Source of the DNA: Eucommia ulmoides
Lineage: Eukaryota; Streptophyta; Magnoliopsida; Garryales; Eucommiaceae
Direction of reading: 5' to 3'
DNA: 64,000 bases
Assembly (NCBI GenBank): GCA_016647705.1
Contig: CM028326.1
Coordinates: forward strand, 28,531,401 to 28,595,400
The notes beneath the pieces were generated by a model that worked only from the letters and a program-made list of their open reading frames with translations, was not told where the DNA came from and did no database searches. Numbering within the stretch: the stretch's first letter is position 1; every line of letters starts with the position of its first letter. Of the stretch, positions 8,096-23,775 are shown one piece after another. The translations under genes were made by a program, and so were the position numbers.

Positions 8096-8385
8096 TTAAG
8101 GATTTCTAAGAGCTGCCAACCTCTTCTCCAGATCGTTCATTTCCAAACTGCTAACATCTTCTGTCTTCTTCCCAGCAATTTTACCTTTGCGAGCTGCTGA
8201 CAACTGTGAAGCAACATCGACACCAATTTCATCTAGAACCTGGTTTGTGAGCTCTTCAGTTTCCTCTTCAGCCTCGTTATTATCCAAAGCATCATCTATA
8301 GTATCAGACATCATTTCAGTAGTCATATCCATTTGTGCCGACTGCTTCGGGAATTCGAGCATCACCTTAGAACTTACCTGTGTTT
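8096..8385 (-). pseudogene. Captured ESCRT-III VPS2/CHMP2 C-terminal fragment
   Basis: Reads VMLEFPKQSAQMDMTTEMMSD, TIDDALDNNEAEEETEELT, NQVLDEIGVDVASQLSAA and the family's last residues LEKRLAALRNP before TAA. VPS2/CHMP2 are ESCRT-III filament subunits; this is only about the C-terminal 90 residues, with the acidic helix and MIM-type tail. No intron interrupts it. Upstream a possible relic splice site (CAGGTAAG) is followed by unrelated GC-rich DNA, so the N-terminus is missing. It lies inside the Pack-MULE and is likely captured, not functional. Confidence 0.85.
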
Positions 8386-8436
8386 TATTTCGACGATTTC
8401 GAAGAGATTTCCACGACGACGAGCCTTTCAAGCCTT

Positions 8437-8612
8437 CGACGACGACCAGCCGCAGCCTTCAACGAAATGGACGAGCTTCAGACGACGATTAGCTTACTAA
8501 TGTAAGAGCCTTCGACGACGAGCTTCCGACGACGAACGAACGAGCCTTTGACGACGACGACCAGCCGCTGCCTTCAACGAAATGGGCGAGCTTCAGACGA
8601 CGATGAGTGGAA
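8437..8612. repeat. GC-rich ACGACG duplication
   Basis: A block with CAGCCGC.GCCTTCAACG and GAGCTTCAGACGACGAT occurs twice, near 8447-8490 and 8565-8605, amid ACGACG runs. It is a local tandem duplication inside the Pack-MULE. Confidence 0.75.
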
Positions 8613-8716: not shown

Positions 8717-8794
8717 GAGTTGTTTACCTATTAAATATTAAAAAAAAAAATTACTGAAAAAAAATAATTTTTAACTTATTTACCTTAGTAATGC

Positions 8795-9082
8795 ATTTCG
8801 CCCTTGTGAAGGGCGAAATCGATTTTTTTTTTTTTTTTTATCCCGTGCTTGTGAACAGCGGGATAAAAAAAAATTAATTTAATTTGATCCCGCCCTTGTG
8901 AAGGGCGGGATCAAAAAAAAAAAATTATTGATCCCGCCCTTCGCAAGGGCGGAATCAAATGAATTTTTTTTTTTTTTAAAAATATGATCCCGCCCTTGTG
9001 AAGGGCGGGATCAACAAACGGCGACCAGCCATTACCACGGCTGGTCACCGTTTGCTTTGGCCGGTCAAACGACTGGCCAAAG
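8795..9082. repeat. Ladder of seven hairpins in left TIR
   Basis: Palindromes at 8795-8819, 8839-8865, 8886-8912, 8930-8956, 8986-9012, 9015-9054 and 9055-9082. The type unit has arms GATCCCGCCC/GGGCGGGATC around TTGTGAA; the last two have arms like CAAACGG.GACCAGCC and CTTTGGCC. The first five are separated by A/T-rich spacers, several of them long A or T runs; the last two are nearly adjacent. Confidence 0.9.
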
Positions 9083-9171
9083 CTACAAAGAAGGCAGCTT
9101 TCTTTCCCCCCTCCCTTTTGAATTTGAATTTTTGAATTTTTGAAATCTCGGTATATGTGCACAACTTCGCC

Positions 9172-9179
9172 TATAAATA
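9172..9179 (+). promoter_or_regulatory. TATA box in left TIR, inward-facing
   Basis: TATAAATA, preceded by GC-richer DNA and followed within 130 bp by a pyrimidine-rich leader and CAG/GTTAGT at 9303-9311. TIR promoters are known in MuDR. It would transcribe toward the mobile domain gene. Confidence 0.55.
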
Positions 9180-9305
9180 TCACTTGCCGGATTTCATTAA
9201 AATTCACATTTCTTCATTTCCTCCTTCTCTCATTTGTTCTTCATTTTGATATTTTTTGTTCTAGTTACACTTCTTCTATTCAGACTTCTACTCCTCTATT
9301 AACAG

Positions 9306-11998
9306 GTTAGTATATTTTTAACGTTTTTTTAATTTATTTGTTAATTTAATTAGTATATTTTTTACCTTTATTTGTTAGTTAGTTGGTTAATTTAATTTTT
9401 TAATTTAATTGTTGAAGTAAAAATTATACTTTGACCATTTTCACATGTTTAAGAAAATATAAAATAATATATTATTTAAAAAAAAATGTTAGTTAGTTAG
9501 TTTAATTTTTTACTCTAGCTATTTAATTAAAAAAAAAAAATACATTAAAAAAAAAAATACACTTTGACCCCTAAAAGTTTAACAACTAGAAAAATATAAA
9601 TTTTTAATATATTATTTTAAAATAAATTATTAGTTAGTTTGTTTGTTTTGTTAATTTAATTTGTTGGTTTAGTTGTTTAATTAGTTGGTTAGTTTAATTT
9701 GTTAATTTAGCTGTTAAATTAAAAATTACACTTTGTCTCCTTTCACATGTGTAGAAAAATATACACTTTGGCTCCTGAAATTTTTTCAATTACAAAAATA
9801 TAAAATTTTCAACCTATTGTTTTAAAATAAATTGTTAGTTAGTTTCATTTTTGAATTTTGTTATTTAATTTAAAATGTATTTATTTAATTTGTTAATTTA
9901 GTTGTTAAATTAAACATTACACTTTCGCCCCATGTGTACGAAAATATAAATCAACATATTACATTTTTAGTTAGTTTAATTTTCTAATTTAGCTATTTAA
10001 TTAAAAATACACTTTGGCCCCTGAAATTTTGATAATTAGAAAAATATAAAATTAAAATACCTATTATTTTGTTTAATTTGTTAATTTAGTTGTTAAATTA
10101 AAAATTACACTTTCGCTCCGTTCACATGTGTAGGAAAATATAAATCAACATACTACATTTTTAGTTAGTTTAATTTTGTAATTTAGCTATTTAATTAAAA
10201 ATATACACTTTGGCCCCTTAAATTTTGATAATTAGAAAAATATAAAATTAAAATACCTATTATTTGTTTAATTTAGTTGTTAAATTAAAAATTACACTTT
10301 CGCCCCTTTCACATGTGTAGGAAAATATACACTTTGGCCCTTGAAATTTTTTCAATTAGAAAAATATTAAATATTCAACCTATTGTTTTAAAATAAATTG
10401 TTAGTTAGTTTCATTTTTTAATTTCGTTATTTAATTTAAAATGTATTTATTTAATTTGTTAATTTAGTTGTTAAATTAAAAATTACACTTTCGTCCCTTT
10501 CACATGTGTAGGAAAATATAAATCAACATATTATATTTTTAGTTAGTTTAATTTTTTAATTTAGCTATTTAATTAAAAATATACACTTTGGCCCCTTAAA
10601 TTTTGATAATTAGAAAAATATAAAATTAAAATACCTATTATTTGTTTAATTTAGTTGTTAAATTAAAAATTACACTTTCGCCCCGTTCACATGTGTAGGA
10701 AAATATACACTTTGGCCCTTGAAATTTTTTCAATTAGAAAAATATTAAATATTCAACCTATTGTTTTAAAATAAATTATTAGTTAGTTTCATTTTTTAAT
10801 TTCGTTATTTAACTTAAAATGTATTTATTTAATTTGTTAATTTAGTTGTTAAATTAAAAATTACACTTTCACCCCTTTCACATGTGTAGGAAAATATAAA
10901 TCAACATATTACATTTTTAGTTAGTTTAATTTTTTAATTTAGCTATTTAATTAAAAATATACACTTTCGCCCCTTAAATTTTGATAATTAGAAAAATATA
11001 AAATTAAAATACCTATTATTTGTTTAATTTAGTTGTTAAATTAAAAATTACACTTTCGCCCCGTTCACATGTGTAGGTAGGAAAATATAAATCAACATAT
11101 TATATTTTTAGTTAGTTTAATTTTTTAATTTAGCTATTTAATTAAAAATATACACTTTGGCCCCTTAAATTTTGATAATTAGAAAAATATAAAATTAAAA
11201 TACCTATTATTTGTTTAATTTAGTTGTTAAATTAAAAATTACACTTTCGCCCCTTTCACATGTGTAGGAAAATATACACTTTGGCCCTTGAAATTTTTTC
11301 AATTAGAAAAATATTAAATATTCAACCTATTGTTTTAAAATAAATTGTTAGTTAGTTTCATTTTTTAATTTCGTTATTTAATTTAAAATGTATTTATTTA
11401 ATTTGTTAATTTAGTTGTTAAATTAAAAATTACACTTTCGCCCCTTTCACATGTGTACGAAAATATACACTTTGGCCCTTGAAATTTTTTCAATTAGAAA
11501 AATATTAAATATCAACCTATTGTTTTAAAATAAATTGTTAGTTAATTTCATTTTTTAATTTCGTTATTTAATTTAAAATGTATTTATTTAATTTGTTAAT
11601 TTAGTTGTTAAATTAAAAATTACATTTTCGCCCCTTTCACATGTGTAGGAAAATATAAATCAACATATTATATTTTTAGTTAGTTTAATTTTTTAATTTA
11701 GCTATTTAATTAAAAATATACACTTTGACCCCTTAAATTTTGATAATTAGAAAAATATAAATTTAAAATACCTATTATTTGTTTAATTTAGTTGTTAAAT
11801 TAAAAATTACACTTTCGCCCCGTTCACATGTGTAGGAAAATATAAATCAACATATTACATTTTTATTTAGTTTAATTTTCTAATTTAGCTATTTAATTAA
11901 AAATATACACTTTGGCCCCTGAAAATTTGACAAGTAGAAAAATATAAAATTAAAATACCTATTATTTGTTTAATTTGTTAATTTACTTATTAAATTTT
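9306..11998 (+). repeat. Left subterminal array, about 190-bp units
   Basis: About 13 tandem units with period close to 190 bp, each marked by ACACTTTCGCCCC then TTCACATGTGTAGG. Two unit types are mixed: one continues AAATCAACATATTA and CCTTAAATTTTGATAAT, the other ACACTTTGGCCCTTG then CAACCTATTGTTTTAAAA. No ORF. Subterminal repeats often bind the transposase in MULEs; here that is inference. Confidence 0.88.
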
Positions 11999-12199
11999 GA
12001 TAGGCGAAAATGTCCATCCCAACCCTGCCTTGCACCCAATTGATCTTGTCGGTTTATTGTAATGAATGTTTATACTACTTTATTTTTTTGTTATGTCAAC
12101 TTTTATGTATTATAAATTTTATGCACTTGTCGCGCACATTTCTTTATAATGAATCTTATATTTTGTTTATAAATATGATTAAATTTTAATTTCGTACTA
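11999..12199 (+). promoter_or_regulatory. Copied leader cassette upstream of the mobile domain gene
   Basis: Inverted duplicate of 16330-16532. It starts with the last transposase codons (GATAGGCGAAAATGTCC..., then CCCAATTGA) and ends at TTCGTACTA, 40 bp before the gene's ATG. It contains TATAAATA at 12168-12175. The same sequence, same orientation, precedes small gene A. It probably serves as a shared promoter or leader. Confidence 0.75.
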
Positions 12200-12238
12200 A
12201 CAAATTTACCACGAGTGTTGTGGGAAAAAATTTCAGCT

Positions 12239-14641
12239 ATGCATCCTGGGCCTGAATATACTTCAGTTCTACACCAACAGGGACAGCACAGGTCCGAACT
12301 AGTTTGGTTAGCGCAGGTAAACATTTAGGTTATTGCATTTGTTTTTTTTTTTTTTATTTAAGTTTTTTAATTTTTTAATGTTATTTATTATGTCTTATTA
12401 AATGTTTCAGGATATCAATACTTTTGACTGTGTTGGACACGATGTAGGGGAATGGAGAGAAAATGTCCCCCCTAGAGTTATACAGTTAATAGAATCAGTC
12501 GGTTTGTACGGCCCATTTAGGTTGTGGCCGAAGCGGTTAGATAGGGCCCTCATAACCGCGTTGGTAGAGAGATGGCGTCCGGAGACGCACACTTTCCATC
12601 TACCTGTCGGGGAGATGACTGTCACATTGCAGGACGTGACCGTCTTATTGGGGTTACCCGTGCATGGGTTGCCAGTTATCCAGAATGATGACTCGCATGA
12701 GGATATCGTCTGGCAGAGACTCTGCGGTGAGCTACTCGGAGTGCAACCACCAGTGGATAAGATTAGGAATGGGTCTTTGACGTTGAAGTGGTTACGAGAT
12801 ACCTTTGCTATAGTTCCTGACGAGGCCGACGAGGAGGTTATGCATTGCTACGCACGTGCATATTGCTTGCTTATGCTTGGTGAGATGTTGTTTTCTGATA
12901 AATCACACAACAGAGTTAAGTTAGCCTACCTCCTACTGCTGCGTGACTTGACACCTTTCGTCAAGTATAGCTGGGGCAGTGCGACCCTAGCGATCCTCTA
13001 CCGCGAGCTTTGTAAGGCCACGAAGCCCAACACGAAACACATTGCCGGGTGCCTATTTTTGTTGGAGTGTTGGGCTTGGGAGCGATTTCCAAGGCTTCGG
13101 CCTGAAGTAGTCCCTCTCCCCGACTATAATATATTATTCGGAGAGCTCGACTATGGCGGCGACTTGAAGTTCCCAGCTGTTCCGAGGGGTTCTTGGTAAG
13201 TAATTAGTATTTTATTTTTAATTTCATTTATCATGTAATAGATATTTATTTATGGATATTAAACTTATGATTTATATTTTTGGTGTACAGGTGGACTCTT
13301 CAATTTAATTTGGATAATTTGCCGATGCATATTTTGGTGGTGTATCGCGATCAGTTAGATCGCTTGAAGAATGACGAGGTTATTTATTTACTTATATCGA
13401 AATTTTAATTTTTTTATTTGTTTGTTTATATTTTATTTTACAGGTCATTTGGATGCCCTATACCTTGCCGACTTTGCCTCCATATACTAAAGATGGAGAA
13501 GATATTTGGATGGCAAAGTTGCCCCTAATATGCTATGAGATTGTCGAGTACACGTATCCCCTCCGCGTGCTACGGCAGTTTGGTTATCGCCAAGGGGTTC
13601 CTGAACCGGTAATGTGGGATAGGAACTTGCACAAAATTACTCGGCGAGGATACTTCCGTGCAAACTGGGCTGACCATCACCATGCACATATAGTTGCGTG
13701 GAATAATCGGCAAGCACCAGATGTCAGCAATTTTGAGCAAGGGATAGGGGTTGACCAAGAATACATAGATTGGTATTGGCGAATCACACGAAGATTTTTG
13801 GTCAACCCGGCGTACCAACCTCAGTTTGGGTATCTACCAATAGGAGGACGACTGGGATTAGATGTATGATCACATTGACTGTACCATCTGTTTAGTTATA
13901 TGAGTTAGATTGTGTTGTTATTATTCATGTATTAATTAAACCAATTTATGTGTTTCGTAGGATACGGAGGTATCAAACTTGATACGCTTGAGTGATCTAA
14001 CCCTGCGGTCTGGTACTGCAGAATCGGGTATCGAGCTGGCTCATGCCATCAATGATGGCACCATTGGGAGGATGTATCGAGGAGTACCACGCCATGTGGC
14101 AGCTGACGTTCCTTCATCTCCTCAGGCTGCTCCTTAGCCTTCTCCTCAGCCATGGACTTCTGATGCCTATCGTCCAGGTAGTGTGGGCGATGCCGAACCT
14201 TCTACATCGTACGGTATGGGCGCTTATGCCGGATCATCTAGTACGCACGGCATGGGCGCTCATGCCGAATCATCTAGTTCGTACGGCATGGGTGACGATG
14301 CTGGGCCATCCAACATGTACCAGATGCATGACCCTTATTCACATTACGCATCGCAGCTAGGTACACACCCATCATCGTCATTCGTCACTCCGGAGATGGA
14401 TGAATTTATTTCAACTTCAGGCGTCATTCCTCCGGTGGCATTTGCCGAACCCACAAGATTGCAAAGACAAGTGTCGCCGGTGCCGTGGTTCGAGGACAAC
14501 GTCGATGCTATCCCGGGGAGTATGCATCAGGCGTTCACGAACTTCGGACAAGTTACACAAGTTCATGAGGAGGCTGAGGAACCTCCTGTTGCACAACGAC
14601 GAGGGCGGAGGAATGTCCGTCGGAGGCCTTGCGGTACATAA
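12239..14641 (+). CDS. Plant mobile domain (PMD) protein of the MULE, one in-frame TAG
   Basis: Five exons: 12239-12316, 12411-13195, 13291-13378, 13444-13863, 13961-14641, all GT-AG and in phase. Exon 1 is MHPGPEYTSVL...HRSELVW. Exons 2-4 give the PMD (aminotransferase-like) domain: VGLYGPFRLW, LDRALITALVERWRPETHTF, GEMTVTLQDVTVLLGLPVHG, WLRDTF, LLECWAWERFPRLRP. Residues 1-457 are open; TAG at 14135-14137 (codon 516, from CAG or similar) cuts off a low-complexity tail with three YGMG/HGMG repeats and a basic C-terminus RRGRRNVRRRP. PMD proteins occur in hosts (MAIN family, silencing and genome stability) and in plant transposons; a role here is unknown. Confidence 0.87.
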
Positions 14642-15079
14642 TTAGTTATGTAGTTGATAGTTTAGTTATAGAAATGTAAATACATTTTTTTTGTAAATAT
14701 ATAGTTATATAGTAATTTATGTAGTTAGTAAATACATTTTTTTGTAACGTCTGGAGATTTAGAAAGTTGTTGATGTACCGTATATATTGCTTCGCAAATA
14801 GATACAGAATTTGAATGAGAGATCGAGCAATGTGTCTAACATTCCGGAAAGATTCTTAAAAAGGCAAAACAACTTGTAACAGTATAATATTAAAGGCGAT
14901 TAAAGTTAAAATAATCATAAATATTATATTAAAAAAATATTACATAGACGGAAACAAATTTAACGATATTTGTTACAAAACTCATAACAAAGACAGTATA
15001 TAAGAAATACAGTACATAATATCATAAAAATAGTGACAATAAAAACACTCCAAAATAAAATACCAGAGCAAAAAATTAA
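14642..15079. other. Convergent intergenic spacer
   Basis: AT-rich 440 bp between the 3' end of the mobile domain gene and that of small gene B. It should hold both terminators. No ORF seen. Confidence 0.6.
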
Positions 15080-15586
15080 TTATTCTTCATTCGACATGTA
15101 CCCCTCAGACAAATATTCATTGTTATTTATCACGTTATGGTATTCGTTTGGAGAGAGTGCTCTGTTGCTTGCGGCAGCCATTTCATTGGCTAGTTGTAGT
15201 AGATAATATCTATTTCTGCGCAACAACATTCGATTATTCTCCAGGCGAATTCGTGTAATAGCATCTTCAATCTCGATTGTGTCATCAATTATACATCGTC
15301 GAGGCATCTGAAGACTTCGACGATGCGGAACTGGTGCATTAAGATTTCTCAAACAAAATACAAGGTTGTTAGACTCATTCACCCTGTATTCCCATTCTTG
15401 GCGTAGACCGACGCGATACTCTATCGGGTTGGTCTCTTGATCACTCCAGTAATCATCATAATATGGTTTTAAAACCCAACATCTTTGGTGATCCCACGGT
15501 CTATGCCAACCCCAAACACCATATGAGTTCTCCTCACTTGAAAAACCATATGAACTTTCTTCACTTGAATTAATATGTGAAGACAT
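15080..15586 (-). CDS. Small MULE gene B, 168 aa, unknown family
   Basis: The first ATG (15586) gives MSSHINSSEESSYGFSSEEN, then an aromatic stretch (VWGWHRPWDHQRCWVL), a middle block EYRVNES, a helical LENNRMLLRRNRYYLLQLANE and an acidic end. It has no transmembrane segment or zinc motif. It is a paralogue of gene A: shared W.L, YRVN(E/Q)S, N.P..H and ENNRM in the same order. The frame is open upstream to 15634 without ATG. It lies downstream of the transposase on the same strand, where MuDR and VANDAL elements keep accessory genes. No function is assigned. Confidence 0.72.
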   Translation of the reverse strand: MSSHINSSEESSYGFSSEENSYGVWGWHRPWDHQRCWVLKPYYDDYWSDQETNPIEYRVGLRQEWEYRVNESNNLVFCLRNLNAPVPHRRSLQMPRRCIIDDTIEIEDAITRIRLENNRMLLRRNRYYLLQLANEMAAASNRALSPNEYHNVINNNEYLSEGYMSNEE

Positions 15587-15876
15587 TACGAAAATTATAG
15601 GCTGAACAGTTTCTTTACAAATATTATACTGCAAATTAAGAGTTCACAAAAAAATTAGTTTTTTAAAAAGATAATTAATGAAAAATTATGTTTTATAACT
15701 TATGTACACGAGCCTTAAATTAAAAAAAAAAAAACTAACCCAACATCACCTATCAATTGAAAGAGAAAAAGTCAGTTGTTTGGTAGAAGTAACGTTATTA
15801 TAATTTAACGTAGAAATGATACATTAGATTTCAAAGGAAATACATAATTAAACTACAATTCACCAACGTTACTTCA

Positions 15877-16311
15877 TTAAACATTACTCTCATCATCAGA
15901 CATTTCAATATCTGACTGATATTGAGGATTCTTTGCATGTCTCATGTAAGTACGCGATTCGGCGAACAAACCTTGTTCAAGACGCTCACGTGCCGTCGTT
16001 TTAAGCTCATGTTGAAAAATTCGAATTTGCATTCGGTTATTTTCTTCACGGTAGCGATGCAACGCCATTTGAAGATTATGCGGCGTGTCTGTTGGCATTG
16101 TTCTGGCCAATTGATGCACTATTGGAATATTATATTGCCTGCATCCGTCCACCATAACCTCTGATTGGTTGACACGATAAGTGTATTCCTCCCGCATCCT
16201 TGCAACCGACCGTGAAGAGTAACGAACTCTTGGATCTAAAGAGTATGAGAATTCGTCTTCCAAAAGCCAGTTACGTCCCATTGAACGATACAAATCTCTC
16301 ACCGTGTACAT
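15877..16311 (-). CDS. Small MULE gene A, 144 aa, paralogue of gene B
   Basis: ATG at 16311 (MYTVRDLYRSMGRNWLLEDE), stop at 15877. It shares with gene B: W(L/V)L, YRVN(Q/E)S, a NIPIVH/NAPVPH step, then R.REENNRM/RIRLENNRM leading a predicted helix, and an acidic end (SDIEMSDDESNV). It is open without breaks, unlike the two large genes. Its upstream 200 bp is copied in front of the mobile domain gene. I recognise no known domain; it may be a DNA- or protein-binding accessory. Confidence 0.74.
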   Translation of the reverse strand: MYTVRDLYRSMGRNWLLEDEFSYSLDPRVRYSSRSVARMREEYTYRVNQSEVMVDGCRQYNIPIVHQLARTMPTDTPHNLQMALHRYREENNRMQIRIFQHELKTTARERLEQGLFAESRTYMRHAKNPQYQSDIEMSDDESNV

Positions 16312-16329
16312 TTTCAATCCTTTTAATTT

Positions 16330-16532
16330 TAGTACGAAATTAAAATTTAATCATATTTATAAACAAAATATAAGATTCATTATAAAGGCAATATGCGCAA
16401 CAAGTGCATAGAATTTATAATACATAACAGTTGACATAACAAAAAAAAAAAAATAGCATAAACATTCATTACAATAAACCGATAAGATCAATTGGGTGCA
16501 TGGCGGGGTCGGGATGGACATTTTCGCCTATC
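16330..16532 (-). promoter_or_regulatory. Leader cassette upstream of small gene A, overlapping the transposase 3' end
   Basis: Counterpart of 11999-12199. On the minus strand it holds the transposase C-terminal codons and stop, then an AT-rich region with TATAAATA near 16354-16361, and ends 19 bp before the ATG of gene A (16311). Confidence 0.72.
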
Positions 16533-19288
16533 ATGTCCAGTTTGGGAACATAAACCGCAATGATTTGTCATTGTTCTGCGCGACTGATCCATCTCGTTTT
16601 GAATGCGAGTGGAATTGGGTCGACCACGATGCACAACTCGAAGTCTATCATGGTCTGGAATGAGGTTCGGAAAATTGGTCTCTAGCCAGTAGTCCTCATG
16701 AAGAATCGGCCGAAACGAAGACTCCCATGCCATCAATTGGTTTGTCATTGTATACTCAGCAACAATATAGCGGAATGCATTAACTTCACTATACTCCGTG
16801 GCCACAAGCATATGGGAGCACGGATATCGCCAAATTTTAAACTTCCCACATGTGCAATCAGGGTTATCTCCTAGTGTGACTTCATGAGGAATCAAGCCCC
16901 CAGTAAGAGTCTTCCTAGTTTTCACATGGAAGATCATATTCTCTCTAGAAAAAAAAATATTTAGTTGTTAAATTATGTCGTAACAATTATATGTAACGTG
17001 AAAAAATAATAATGAATACTAAATTACCGATTGAATATTTGAATCTCGTATGTTTTAGACTTGGCTTAAGATTTCTGTATTTTATCAAGGACGTGTTTAG
17101 CATATACGTAACCGTCAGCTGAGTCCTTTAAAGCTTGTTGTCGACCAATATCAAAGTATTTAACCATCCTGTAGAACGTAATCTTGACGGCTGCAGTTAT
17201 TGGAACATTTCTTGCACCCTTTAAACAGTTGTTAAATACCTCTGCATAATTGGTCGTCATGACTCCCCAACGCTTACCATTGTCGTGTGCCCTGATCCAT
17301 TTGTAAGGTGCATGATTGCTCAACCATGCATGCGTCTGAACATCAATCTTTTTTATCTCTTCCATGATAGCATCGTATTTTCGAATTTGTGTTGCAGCAC
17401 CTGCATTCCAAGCAAGATCTTTGAGATGCTGATTTTTAGCAATCTTATTGAAATTGCTACAAAGGTTCCGCAAACAAAATCGATGATATCGGAGGGGCTC
17501 GTTATGTTGATTAAGCCAAATATTGTCAACTGCACTAATAATGTCGGCGTGTCTATCAGATATCAATGTAACCTCAGGACGATCACCGACAATATGACAC
17601 TTAAGCATGTAGATGAACCAGCGCCAACATCGGTAATCCTCCGTCGGTACGACTGCAAAAGCCAATGGGTAGCACTTGTTGGACGACGTCATTCCTATGG
17701 CGATTAAAATCTTTCCATCATATTTACCATACAAATGGGTCCCGTCAATGGTGATTACAGGGCGACAATAACGCCATCCGTCGACTGAAGCTTTGAATGC
17801 CCAAAATACCATGTCGAACATCCTATAGTCAGGCATATCAGTCGACACAGTGCTCCACTCGACAATCGTACCTGCATTGTAGTGCTGCAACGCGACCATA
17901 AACTTCGGTAACTTTCAGTATGATTCATCCCAATCTCCGAACAAGGTCTCAATGGCTTTAGATCTAGCCAACCAAGCTTTTCTATAGGAGATAGTGTATC
18001 CATGAGCCTCTTTCACGTAAGCCACAATGACGTCAATCTTCAATTCTGGATCCTGTTCTACTTGTCCAAGTATTAGGTTCGAAATGAGTGCAGAATCCAA
18101 ATTTTTATGATCTACAGCAGTATGATTATAGAAACATGTGTGTTGCCCCTCATACTGTGTAATCTCAAGCATACCGTGACTTTTTTTCCTCCTCGCCCGC
18201 AACCTCCAATCGCATCCATGCGAACAATTAATCGACCAGAGCTTCTTGTTCGTTTGCGAGACATAAAACTCTTTGTTCTTTTTCAAGTGGTAAAATTTGA
18301 CGGCCTGCTGGAGATGTTCCTTGTCCTTAAAGACCATACCAGTACGGAATTCGTCCATCTCCGGTGTCCAAAAATTCTTCCGCAACTTCGGCTCGTATTT
18401 CGCCAAGTCATCGTCGTCACCCCATTCCAAGTTATTGAAAAATGAAATTACATTGTCTAACTCCAATTGCTGATTTTCACCCCCTTGCCCGCTAGGCCCA
18501 GCATCTAGATCTTCGTCTGGCTGAAACGCAAAATCCGCATCGAACTCTTCTTCTGACACATCGTCGCGACTATCAATTGTATCAAAGTCACCACCATAAT
18601 TACTTATGTTATCTTGCGGCGGACTACTCGGTGAATAATGGGGATGTGGAAGAGCAGAGCTGGTGCCATGACCACGGTCAATCATACTATGAGAATGATC
18701 TTGCTCTGGAATATAGGGGAGTGGGACGGTGTAATTAGACTCAAGTAATTGGGGGTGCAGCATAGGAGTATTGTGGGAATGATATTGTTCTAGACTGTAA
18801 GGGGGTGGGATGGTGTAATTAGATTGGACTGCTTGGGGAACGGTGCCGAAAAATTGTCCGTCAGATTGGATACTGTACGGATTTAAACTCTGGGTCATTA
18901 AGTTGGTAAAATGACCACTTGGGGGAAAAAAATTTGGACCATCATCAAATGCCCGTTCTATCTCTACATATACTTCAACAGCAAGAAGGGAGGGTATATA
19001 CAGAGGTAACTCAAGCACTTGGTTTAATGCTGAGTCATCCTCGATAGAAAACAAGGTATATTTATAGTTCGACCCGAAAAGAGCCATCGGCATCCTACAC
19101 TTTAGTTTCAAAATTCCAGTAACCCCATCTTCAAGAACACATGGTTTTAGCGTCTCAATTAATTTATTTAAGCTTGTTCCCCTACGGACAACCAAAGATT
19201 TTACAACTGATGTACTATAACAAACCCCGAACTCCGTACCTTCCAATATTCTACCACCCCAATACAATAACAATCGAACGTGATCCAT
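16488..19288 (-). CDS. MURA-type MULE transposase, two in-frame stops
   Basis: Two exons, 19288-17028 and 16944-16488, with GT/AG at an 83-bp intron; 906 codons. The order is typical: N-terminal MDHVRLLLYWGG, MuDR DNA-binding region near codons 340-455 (FKDKEHLQQAVKFYHLKKN; CSHGCDWRLRARRK), DDE core with D515 (ITIDGTHL), D578 (LISDRHADI), E683 (NYAEVFNN), then SWIM zinc finger C-T-C...C-S-H and a C-terminal CCHC knuckle CGLCSQTGHDRRKC. Stops are TGA (17915-17917, codon 458, just before the core) and TAA (17066-17068, codon 741). Otherwise the frame is open, so inactivation looks recent. Stop readthrough is not excluded. Confidence 0.9.
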
Positions 19289-19639
19289 TTCAAGCGACTA
19301 TCATTTGACAAGGCAAAACAAAACAAGAAAATAATATCGTTAACTAAAACTCAATCACAAAAGTATGTTGGTTTATAGTGTTCATTTTTTATGGGTTAGA
19401 CTAATTTATTTTCAATCCTTAATATTTTACTTATTTTGAATTTATTCAATAATTATTTTAACTTTAACTCTAAATCGAATATAAATTCCACGTCAAGCTA
19501 ATATCAACTAAATAGATTCAATTAATTTGAGGAATGAAAGTGCACAATTTGTACATCATATTCCAATGTTTGTAGTGTAAATTTTTTATGGATTTCAGTA
19601 ATTTATTTTCAATCTTAACATTTTACTTACCAATATAAC
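19289..19639. other. 5' flank of transposase, non-coding
   Basis: AT-rich, no ORF. A T-rich tract followed by GATAG, nine bases before the transposase ATG, could be an acceptor for an intron that starts in the TIR. Confidence 0.45.
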
Positions 19640-22573
19640 AAGTTTAATAAACTAACCAAAAATTCTTTTATATAAGTTTAAACAAATACATTTTAAATTA
19701 AATAACGAAATTCAAAAAATAAAATAAATTAACAAATTAAACAAATAATAGGTATTTTAATTTTATATTTTTCTAATTATCAACTTTTCAGGGCCAAAAT
19801 GTATATTTTTAATTAAATAGCTAAATTAGAAAATTAAACTAACTAAAAATGTAATATGTTGATTTATATTTTCCTACACATGTGAAAGGGGCGAAAGTAT
19901 AATTTTTAATTTAACGAAAAATAAAACAAATAATAGGTATTTTAATTTTATATTTTTCTAATTGTCAAATTTTCAGGGCCCAAAGTGTATATTTTTAATT
20001 AAATAGCTAAATTAGAAAATTAAACTAATTAAAAATGTAATATGTTGATTTATATTTTCGTACACATGTGAAAGAGGCGAAAGTGTAATTTTTAATTTAA
20101 CAACTAAATTAACAAATTAAATAAATACATTTTAAATTAAATAACGAAATTAAAAATAAAATTAACTAACAATTTATTTTAAAACAATAGGTTGAATATT
20201 TAATATTTTTCTAATTGAAAAAATTTCAAGGGCCAAAGTGTATATTTTCCTACACATATGAACGGGGCGAAAGTGTAATTTTTAATTTAACAACTAAATT
20301 AAACAAATAATAGGTATTTTAATTTTATATTTTTCTAATTATCAAAATTTAAGGGGCCAAAGTGTATATTTTTAATTAAATAGCTAAATTAAAAAATTAA
20401 ACTAACTAAAAATATAATATGTTGATTTATATTTTCCTACACATGTGAACGGGGCGAAAGTGTAATTTTTAATTTAACAACTAAATTAACAAATTAAACA
20501 AAATAATAGATATTTTAATTTTATATTTTTCTAATTATCAAAATTTCAGGCGCCAAAGTGTATTTTAATTAAATAGCTAAATTAGAAAATTAAACTAACT
20601 AAAAATGTAATATTTTGATTTATATTTTCGTACACATGTGAAAGGGGAGAAAGTGTAATTTTTAATTTAACAACTAAATTAACAAATTAAATAAATACAT
20701 TTTAAATTAAATAACGAAATTAAAAAATGAAACTAACTAACAATTTATTTTAAAACAATAGGTTGAATATTTAATATTTTTCTAATTGAAAAAATTTCAA
20801 GGGCCAAAGTGTATATTTTCCTACACATGTGAAAGGGGCGAAAGTGTAATTTTTAAATTAACAACTAAATTAAACAAATAATAGGTATTTTAATTTTATA
20901 TTTTTCTAATTATCAAAATTTAAGGGGCCAAAGTGTATATTTTTAATTAAATAGCTAAATTACAAAATTAAACTAACTAAAAATGTAATATGTTGATTTA
21001 TATTTTCCTACACATGTGAAAGGGGCGAAAGTGTAATTTTTAATTTAACAACTAAATTAAACAAATAATAGGTATTTTAATTTTATATTTTTCTAATTAT
21101 CAAAATTTAAGGGGCCAAAGTGTATATTTTTAATTAAATAGCTAAATTACAAAATTAAACTAACTAAAAATGTAATATGTTGATTTATATTTTCGTACAC
21201 ATGTGAAAGGGGCGAAAGTGTAATTTTTAATTTAACAACTAAATTAACAAATTAAATAAATACATTTTAAATTAAATAACAAAATTAAAAAATGAAACTA
21301 ACTAACAATTTATTTTAAAACAATAGGTTGAATATTTAATATTTTTTTAATTGAAAAAATTTCAAGGGCCAAAGTGTATATTTTCGTACACATGTGAAAG
21401 GGGCGAAAGTGTAATTTTTAATTTAACAACTAAATTAACAAATTAAATAAATATATTTTAAATTAAATAACGAAATTAAAAAATGAAACTAACTAACAAT
21501 TTATTTTAAAACAATAGGTTGAATATTTAATATTTTTCTAATTGAAAAAATTTCAAGGGCCAAAGTGTATATTTTTCTACACATGTGAAAGGGGCGAAAG
21601 TGTAATTTTTAATTTAACAACTAAATTAAACGAATAATAGGTATTTTAATTTTATATTTTTCTAATTATCAAAATTTAAGGGGCCAAAGTGTATATTTTT
21701 AATTAAATAGCTAAATTACAAAATTAAACTAACTAAAAATGTAATATGTTGATTTATATTTTCCTACACATGTGAACGGGGCGAAAGTGTAATTTTTAAT
21801 GTAACAACTAAATTAACAAATTAAATAAAATAATAGGTATTTTAATTTTATATTTTTCGAATTATCAAAATTTTAGGGGCCAAAGTGTATTTTTAATTAA
21901 ATAGCTAAATTAGAAAATTAAACTAACTAAAAATGTAATATGTTGATTTATATTTTCATACACATGGGGCGAAAGTGTAATTTTTAATTTAACAAATAAA
22001 TTAACAAATTAAATAAATACATTTTAAATTAAATAACAAAATTCAAAAATGAAACTAACTAACAATTTATTTTAAAACAATAGGTTGAAAATTTTATATT
22101 TTTGTAATTGAAAAAATTTCAGGGGCCAAAGTGTATATTTTTCTACACATGTGAAAGGAGACAAAGTGTAATTTTTAATTTAACAACTAAATTAACAAAT
22201 TAAACTAACCAACTAATTAAACAACTAAACCAACAAATTAAATTAACAAAACAAACAAACTAACTAATAATTTATTTTAAAATAATATATTAAAAATTTA
22301 TATTTTTCTAGTTGTTATACTTTTAGGGGTCAAAGTGCATATTTTTTTAATTAAATAGCTAGAGTAAAAAATTAAACTAACTAACTAACATTTTTTTTGA
22401 AATAATATATTATTTTATATTTTCTTAAACATGTGAAAATGACCAAAGTATAATTTTTAATTCAACAATTAAATTAACAAATTAAACTAACCAACTAACT
22501 AACAAATAAAAGTAAAAAATATACTAATTAAATTAAAAAAATAAATAAAAAAAAACGTTAAAAATATACTAAC
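19640..22573 (-). repeat. Right subterminal array, about 190-bp units
   Basis: Same two unit types as the left array, in inverted orientation (CCTACACATGTGAA then GGGGCGAAAGTGT), about 13 units. The inner edge near 19640 is approximate. Confidence 0.87.
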
Positions 22574-22700
22574 CTGTGCATAGAGGAGTAGAAGTCTGAA
22601 TAGAAGAAGTGTAACTAGAACAAAAAAATATCAAAATGAAGAACAAATGAGAGAAGGAGTAAATGAAGAAGTATGAATTTTAATGAAATCCGGTAAGTAA

Positions 22701-22708
22701 TATTTATA
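22701..22708 (-). promoter_or_regulatory. TATA box in right TIR, inward-facing
   Basis: Mirror copy of 9172-9179, facing the transposase gene. The leader ends at a donor-like CAG/GTTAGT with GT at 22572-22573. Confidence 0.55.
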
Positions 22709-22860
22709 GGCGAAATTGTGCACATATATCGAGATTTTAAAATTTCAAATTAAAGTTAAACCTATACCTATACCTATATAAAAAAAAAAATAGCCTGCCT
22801 TCTTTGTAGAAAAAAAAAAAAGGGGAGAAGGCAGCCTAAAAAAGGCTGCCTTCTCTGCAG

Positions 22861-23163
22861 CTTTGGCCGGTCGTTTGACCGGCCAAAGCAAACGGCGACC
22901 AGCCGTGTAAACGGCTGGTCGCCGTTTGGTGATCCCGCCCTTCACAAGGGCGGGATCACATTTTTAAAAGAAAAAAAATTCCATTTGATCCTGCCCTTGT
23001 GATGGGCAAGATCAAATAAAAAAAAAAAAAAAAAATTTATTGATCCCGCCCTTCGCAAGGGCGGGATCAAATTAAATTAATTTTTTTTGATCCCGCTGTT
23101 CACAAGCGCGGGATCAAAAAAAAAAAAAAAAAAATTCGATTTCGCCCTTCACAAGGGCGAAAT
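22861..23163. repeat. Ladder of seven hairpins in right TIR
   Basis: Same order mirrored: 22861-22888, 22889-22928, 22931-22957, 22987-23013, 23042-23068, 23089-23115 and 23138-23163. 22987-23013 shows paired changes (CTGCCC/GGGCAAG) that weaken its stem. Confidence 0.88.
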
Positions 23164-23242
23164 GCATTATTCACGTAAATAAGTTAAAAACTATTCTCAT
23201 TCAGTAATTTTTTTTTTTTAATATTTAATAGGTAAACAACTC

Positions 23243-23400: not shown

Positions 23401-23410
23401 TTTAATCAAG

Positions 23411-23775
23411 AGTAACTGGATTTCAGTCTCTTCCTGTAAAGAAATTGAGGTATTAATTCTTCTTGAATAGAATTAGTGTGAGTGTTTTGTAAATGTTCCA
23501 TCCTTACCTGTGAAAATGATAGTTGGAGTGTTTTGTGAGATTTTGATTCTTATGCCTTAGTGTTAAAAAAAATTAGTTTATTCTTTAACCTATAAAAAGT
23601 AGAGGCTCGTCCTTAGCCTGAGAAAAAGAAATTGTAAATGTTGATTCTAAGCTTGTAAAATAATCGGTGTGCGAGTTTGGTTCCTACCTTTAAAGGGATC
23701 TTAGTTTTAGTGAGTGTGACCTCACATTATGTCCCTACATCATCTCCAATAAGCAATAACTCACTCGCAAACTAT
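23411..23775. other. Non-coding DNA right of Pack-MULE
   Basis: Probably the continuation of 5031-6587. Nothing coding seen. Confidence 0.4.

Follow-up and report, generated by a model that had tools for sequence, protein, structure and literature searches.

A 64,000-nucleotide stretch of the Eucommia ulmoides genome (assembly GCA_016647705.1, contig CM028326.1, positions 28,531,401 to 28,595,400; hereafter the window) contains a Mutator-like element (MULE) at 8717-23242, which we confirmed to be real. Besides its transposase gene, the element carries a plant mobile domain (PMD) gene and two small genes, S1 and S2. It belongs to a subfamily, class I, in which PMD and transposase converge. Comparison of its junctions with a related copy shows how, as reconstructed, class I arose from elements with transposase and then PMD on one strand. 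In this reconstruction, the transposase block was placed on the arm bearing S1, and the old copy was deleted to its last codons before PMD. We regard the anatomy and history of the class I element, as laid out here, as nearly certain.

The relocation junctions (Table 1) were resolved against one class II copy, C14. In class II (C14, C10, C4, and C17), array, transposase, and PMD share one strand, followed by S2 and S1 on the other. C14 was the sole class II copy read to both ends; it spans 11.5 kb with terminal inverted repeats (TIRs) and arrays at both. In C14, the equivalent of the scar at 11998-12200 comes after the full transposase. The 303 bp from the scar towards PMD matched C14 at 95%, and the 97 bp before it are array. 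At the second junction, a 383-bp match at 93.7% links window positions 16329-16711 to the 3' region of the C14 transposase. In C14, the DNA upstream of S1 is AT-rich and array-like, unlike in the window, where S1 is preceded by the transposase 3' region; the breakpoint therefore lies within ~20 bases of the S1 start. Because all class II-V copies read have the order transposase-PMD, class I is taken as the derived form. Relocation may have proceeded by gap repair or by template switching between the inverted arrays.

Table 1. Features of the class I element, in window positions
Feature	Position	Strand	Remarks
Whole class I MULE	8717..23242	.	14,526 bp; 30/30 terminal match; equivalent unit in 5 other bounded copies
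Left TIR	8717..9305	+	GC-rich palindromes; TATA box ~9172; splice donor 9305/9306
Left tandem array	9888..11976	+	190/378-bp period; motif ACACTTT[CG]GCCCC; putatively within 5' intron of PMD
Relocation scar	11998..12200	+	transposase 3'-end remnant and downstream spacer directly 5' of PMD; 93% to 16329-16533 (minus strand); class II has the undeleted order
PMD gene	12239..14644	+	exons 12239-12316, 12411-13195, 13291-13378, 13444-13863, 13961-14644; 683 codons; PF10536; exon lengths and splice sites compared in 11 copies
Small gene S2	15080..15586	-	168 aa from ATG; no Pfam match above cut-off
Small gene S1	15877..16311	-	144 aa from ATG; no Pfam match above cut-off
Second relocation junction	16312..16533	-	transposase 3' end and ~200-bp spacer before S1 start; compared with C14
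MULE transposase	16488..19288	-	exons 19288-17028 and 16944-16488; 905 codons
Right tandem array	19734..22009	-	left-array units inverted; putatively within 5' intron of transposase
Right TIR	22574..23242	-	palindromes; TATA box ~22708; splice donor

The terminal bases GAGTTGTTTACC...GGTAAACAACTC pair at all 30 positions exactly at 8717 and 23242, the ends named in the initial annotation. To compare bounded elements, we scored the best 40 of 784 candidates from a genome-wide search with the left TIR and chose five further class I copies by two facing ends ~14 kb apart. These (C5:42.6 Mb, C62, C6:6.4 Mb, C12:42.9 Mb, and C13:16.4 Mb), the window copy, and class II copy C14 made up the set, and both termini started with GAGTTGTTTA in all seven. 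The proposed target duplication was borne out in the family rather than in the window copy, which is flanked on both sides by low-complexity, T-rich TTTTTTTTTTAT (a 12-bp match), weak evidence taken alone. Exact 10-bp duplications flanked C62, C12, C13, and C14 (four of the seven elements; four of the six other than the window copy). C5 had a 9-bp match displaced by one base, and none was found at C6. With a MULE transposase domain, long TIRs, and target site duplications within 8-11 bp in the family, the element has the hallmarks of a MULE. PMD lay inside all six bounded class I copies and the sole bounded class II copy. S1 and S2 also lay within the TIR unit in all six class I copies, as expected of the mobile lineage proposed initially; in none was PMD or a small open reading frame flanking DNA. 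Classification as a Pack-MULE, which lacks a transposase and holds host gene fragments, was ruled out by a transposase gene, open or decayed, in each of the six. A search with both flanks found no empty site for the window copy, which does not speak against insertion. The left flank is repetitive. The right flank aligned with 39 other listed places, starting no earlier than its base 159, so none spans the insertion point. From that base (window positions 23401-23700), the flank belongs to a repeat present elsewhere in at least 39 copies at ~90%.

The spliced PMD gene of the initial annotation was upheld, with a PF10536 match at E=1e-59 and GT..AG at all four introns separating its five exons. 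Exon lengths were identical in the window copy, C5, C62, C13, and class II copies C14 and C17 (six of eight class I/II copies); in C6, exon 3 is shorter, and exon 4 of C12 has lost one base. The first four exons are nearly equal in length to these in classes III and IV. The acceptor of the last intron is missing in one class III copy, and that intron does not line up in class IV. The PMD protein is 42.6% identical to L036, a probable host PMD exon of the same genome, and 27.7% identical to L035; the labels for PMD clades are likewise presumptive. Exon 2 had no solved-structure relatives at E<=1. At the C-terminus (14600-14641), classes I, III, IV, and V have a closely similar basic tail, RGRRNVRRRPCGT, preceded by a stretch of variable length and repeat content.

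The transposase matched PF10551 (E=1e-15), SWIM (E=7.3e-6), and the MuDR N-terminal domain PF03108 (E=2.5e-7). Of the motifs first reported for it, SWIM was thus recovered by profile, and we presume that the visible CCHC knuckle and DDE-like residues are correctly so labeled. Copies C12 and C13 were not counted for the two-exon model. The window copy is dead, with transposase stops at codons 458 and 741 of 905 and a PMD stop at codon 516 of 683. The label autonomous, given to it initially, therefore fits the lineage and not this copy. PMD and transposase are both free of stops in C5 and C62; the S1 and S2 pieces of C62 are also stop-free, and C5 has one stop in S1. The twin small genes are present as described; they are paralogues that match each other at 33% over 108 aa (E=2e-10). 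A structure model of S2, with S1 as sole alignment partner, reached a best mean pLDDT of 57 (37-40 for the other four); the best model predicts two long helices (54-81 and 103-140; block means 64-85), the remainder being mostly low.

Genome matches were scored as lower bounds, from the best 144 of 1784 for PMD exon 2, 138 of 4200 for the transposase core, 150 of 1677 candidates for S1, and 150 of 1483 for S2; pairing by coordinates took in the first 96 S1 and 97 S2 matches. Among the 144 PMD matches, 67 were paired with a convergent transposase (the class I arrangement), 24 had a transposase upstream on the same strand, and 53 had none in reach among the matches listed. At least 53 of the 67 convergent loci also had S1 and S2, and 10 of these four-gene loci showed no stop in the matched pieces together with a 757-codon transposase frame. 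Copies with the full gene set and open frames, whose search the initial annotation had suggested, thus exist, and its description of the lineage as uncommon does not hold: the arrangement is abundant here, and MULEs with a sense or antisense PMD are listed for several plant MULE groups (PMC6446971). C62 differed from three other class I copies by a synonymous distance (dS) of 0-0.044 per gene piece, so the family spread recently. At C6:6402897-6442677, a class I end and PMD occur in two places separated by ~26 kb; TIR and PMD scores are the same at both, which suggests a local duplication.

The remaining subfamilies keep transposase and PMD in tandem. Class III (C1, C8, C9, and C77) has transposase then PMD, with no S1 or S2 within the 9.9-kb stretches; C1 has a TIR-like end ~1 kb beyond PMD. 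Of two further stretches, L018 lacks part of the transposase and L019 any PMD match. Class IV (one copy, C2:40.63 Mb) has transposase, PMD, S2, and S1, its own TIRs (85%), and an unrelated 321-bp array. No target duplication was found in the scan made of its ends, and further inverted repeats lie outside them. This locus (L043+L033) also has a 187-bp array between PMD and S2, and may represent nested MULEs, given the extra inverted repeat outside its TIRs. Class V (one copy, C9:5.39 Mb) has transposase then PMD and no S1 or S2 within 10 kb.

Each arm of the window element consists of a TIR (~590 bp left, ~670 bp right) and an array, and the arms align in inverted orientation over ~3.3 kb each. 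The palindromic TIRs and arrays of the initial annotation thus stand, in arms longer than it gave. Array periods are ~190 and 378 bp. Repeats of GC-rich palindromes (GATCCCGCCCTTGTGAAGGGCGGGATC and variants) make up the TIRs at 8790-9020 and 22930-23165 and differ in number between copies; these are possible transposase-binding or hairpin sites. The sequence TATAAATA occurred in all 12 arms of the six class I copies, and in 11 of 12 a CAGGTWAGT donor follows at a distance of 131-133 bp. Immediately 5' of the PMD start, 9 of 11 copies have a TTTCAG acceptor, and C12 and C14 have TTTCAA; if this acceptor is used, the arrays are 5' introns. It is likely from these signals that each TIR supplies a promoter and a first non-coding exon, with the array in a long 5' intron. 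The strict motif ACACTTT[CG]GCCCC occurs 28 times in the window element (13 forward, 15 reverse) and not once in ~49.5 kb of window flank. Extended to 14 bases by a final T, it is found at 20 window sites, 9 of them in 9888-11996 and 11 in 19734-22270, always pointing inward. Class I/II, III, IV, and V stretches have arrays that differ from one another; those of classes IV and V carry other tandem repeats and no copy of the motif, strict or loose.

Selection was estimated from one class I and one class IV copy, with bootstrap ranges given in parentheses. The ratio of nonsynonymous distance (dN) to dS was 0.15 (0.09-0.22) for the transposase core, 0.25 (0.18-0.37) for PMD exon 2, 0.32 (0.17-0.59) for S1, and 0.20 (0.10-0.39) for S2, with the PMD tail looser at 0.58 (0.38-0.89). 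Upper bounds below 1 for all four genes led us to reject the view that the extra genes are functionless passengers, host fragments of the kind that MULEs often capture (PMC6446971) and that Pack-MULEs hold; this is very improbable even though S1 comes close to 1 in comparisons of class I with decayed class II copies, as PMD exon lengths are conserved as described above and PMD has stayed linked to the transposase over a transposase dS above 1 (class I to V).

PMD and transposase trees share the order I/II, III, IV/V, with support of 96-100 at class-level nodes of the transposase tree. Between classes I and III, PMD exon 2 evolved faster (dN 0.156) than the transposase core (0.047) or the N-terminal part of the transposase (0.096). 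S1 and S2 follow another course. Between classes I and IV, their dS was 0.22-0.27, against 0.54-0.76 for transposase pieces, 0.66-0.86 for PMD exons 2 and 4, and 0.51-0.86 across all transposase and PMD pieces. Class III, nearer to class I than class IV is, lacks both genes. The simplest reading is that the S1-S2 pair apparently moved between subfamilies after the lineages separated.

Several observations weigh against these readings of selection, linkage, and exchange. The ratio for S1 between classes I and II was ~1 on 14-23 changes, in class II copies that are decayed and carry stops; for S2 the same decayed copies gave 0.4-0.9 on 7-21 changes. Backbone support in the PMD tree, which is small and unrooted and in which the host branch L035 is unstable, was 73-77, and two other PMDs (L036 and L037) join class V there. 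For dS, the ranges of the PMD tail (0.34-0.69) and S2 (0.18-0.39) overlap, as do those of S2 and the transposase N-terminal part when class II copy C17 is used. Given these overlaps, the argument for cassette exchange comes mainly from S1, PMD exons 2 and 4, and the transposase core.

We favor, as on balance probable, an explanation that joins this layout to a role for the extra genes. Expression of PMD would start from the left TIR, and that of the transposase, with S1 and S2 downstream, from the right TIR. PMD would oppose host silencing and keep the element expressed, with the tandem arrays of its own family as its site of action, in the manner of VANC in VANDAL elements. S1 and S2 would be accessory proteins shared among subfamilies through cassette exchange. 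The parts differ in strength: PMD as an anti-silencing factor is tentative, and its targeting through the arrays is doubtful. Both lean on analogy: VANC acts at fast-evolving tandem repeats in the non-coding DNA of VANDALs (PMC5735166 and PMC10398659), and PMD may likewise be a family-specific anti-silencing protein. Leads for the parallel are the faster evolution of PMD relative to the transposase, the subfamily-specific arrays, and a weak DUF1985 match. All 11 PMD sequences scanned matched DUF1985 at E<=10 (best E 5.7e-5), and DUF287 was not among the families listed in that scan.

Other results count against an array-directed, anti-silencing PMD. The window PMD scores 17.7 bits for DUF1985 (E=0.0035), against a Pfam cut-off of 35.1, and only the final third of the domain is matched. 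None of the five class III stretches contains the strict motif; a looser form occurs in four of them and is missing from L019 despite its long array. Class II copy C14 holds just three strict motifs. Known host PMD proteins promote silencing, the opposite effect (PMC5418596). It seems rather unlikely that the complete scheme applies, in which PMD-MULEs carry VANC-like anti-silencing through a PMD that recognizes its own array motif, array and PMD diverge together, the class I rearrangement gave PMD its own TIR promoter and so allowed recent spread, and S1/S2 form an exchangeable partner module. If it did, a transposon protein that counters silencing would have the MAIN/MAIL silencing proteins of the host among its relatives.

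Two other roles are each unlikely in our judgment. Transposon-encoded PMD could disturb the host MAIN/MAIL1/PP7L silencing complex by mimicry, binding no element arrays. The likeness of PMD to the presumed host exon L036 would suit this; mimicry, however, leaves the subfamily-specific arrays without a role, and a global effect would harm the host. Alternatively, PMD, S1, and S2 could all be transposition accessory proteins for end binding, excision, or integration, with no part in silencing. Such a role, about as improbable as mimicry, agrees with ratios below 1 for all four genes, with the common order of the two trees, and with maize mudrB, described as apparently required for integration (PMC6446971). 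For S1 and S2 it meets the difficulty that four class III stretches with transposase and PMD have neither. Two class III copies differ by a dS of only 0.008-0.044, so this class spread without them.

Several known systems come close to this element. MULEs with a sense or antisense PMD are listed as MULE-Solanaceae_1, VANDAL, MuDR-9_OS, MULE-Monocots, MDR, MUDRAVI2, and MUDR (PMC6446971), in line with the initial remark that plant transposons are known to carry PMD genes (see also PMC5418596). Like the window element, these combine a SWIM-bearing MULE transposase with PMD, sense or antisense to it; the MUDR group has similar 9-10 bp target duplications, and MULE-Solanaceae_1 similarly has an unknown ORF and an antisense PMD (PMC6446971). 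What is available of that account describes neither twin small genes, two-arm arrays, nor how sense and antisense forms are related, whereas the E. ulmoides genome holds the two forms together with the junctions. PMD-C of grasses and Amborella is also MULE-encoded; it is fused to the transposase (PMC5418596), whereas here PMD forms a five-exon gene of its own, which lies downstream of the transposase in the class II-V copies read and is convergent with it in class I. An anti-silencing role for transposon-borne PMD, which the initial annotation held to be conceivable, has been suggested already (PMC5418596 and PMC8616336).

VANDAL21/Hiun, with VANA, VANB, and VANC, resembles class I as a MULE with a transposase and further genes. 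VANA is described as much more conserved than VANC, so an accessory protein evolving faster than the transposase is common to both systems (PMC5735166 and PMC10398659). Half the VANDAL group is listed with PMD and/or DUF (PMC6446971). VANDALs have no or short TIRs, 9-bp target duplications, and a VANC with DUF1985 and DUF287, whereas the present family has long TIRs, 10-bp duplications, and a PMD with sub-threshold DUF1985 similarity. TIRs of ~590 and 670 bp in arms of ~3.3 kb depart from those of VANDALs, which are absent or short and degenerate.

Class I also reaches the layout of maize MuDR, in which mudrA and mudrB are convergent genes driven from TIR promoters. It is set apart by PMD as the second gene, by the extra S1 and S2, and by multi-kilobase arrays.

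Already known, then, are PMD in MULEs in both senses, PMD-C capture, and the counter-silencing idea; new here are the relocation scar, the twin-gene cassette, and the parallel of PMD and arrays with VANDAL VANC. The accessible text of the open-licence literature searched yielded no account of the S1/S2 family, the relocation junctions, or PMD-MULE arrays, and no functional test of a MULE PMD. The reconstruction explains how sense and antisense PMD arrangements, so far just listed, can interconvert, and it suggests that two small gene families pass between transposon subfamilies as a cassette. With recent open-frame copies, subfamilies whose arrays differ, and a natural rearrangement by which the expression of PMD and that of the transposase are separated, this genome suits a direct test of transposon-borne PMD.

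Three further loci were noted. At C4:2507473-2604771, a tandem cluster of at least nine PMD matches, L035 among them, includes six full-length single-exon frames of ~784-909 aa, probably host PMD genes of another clade. A long ORF adjoining the class V locus (L044/L039/L045, C9:5387500-5397500) presumably encodes a plant methyltransferase-type membrane protein. To the left of the window element, exon pieces at 8096-8458 (minus strand) and 8250-8370 adjoin each other and stand ~500 bp apart at C14:53594218-53594856 (97-98%). They resemble what we take to be an ESCRT VPS2/CHMP2-type protein, and look like a captured intron-less fragment.

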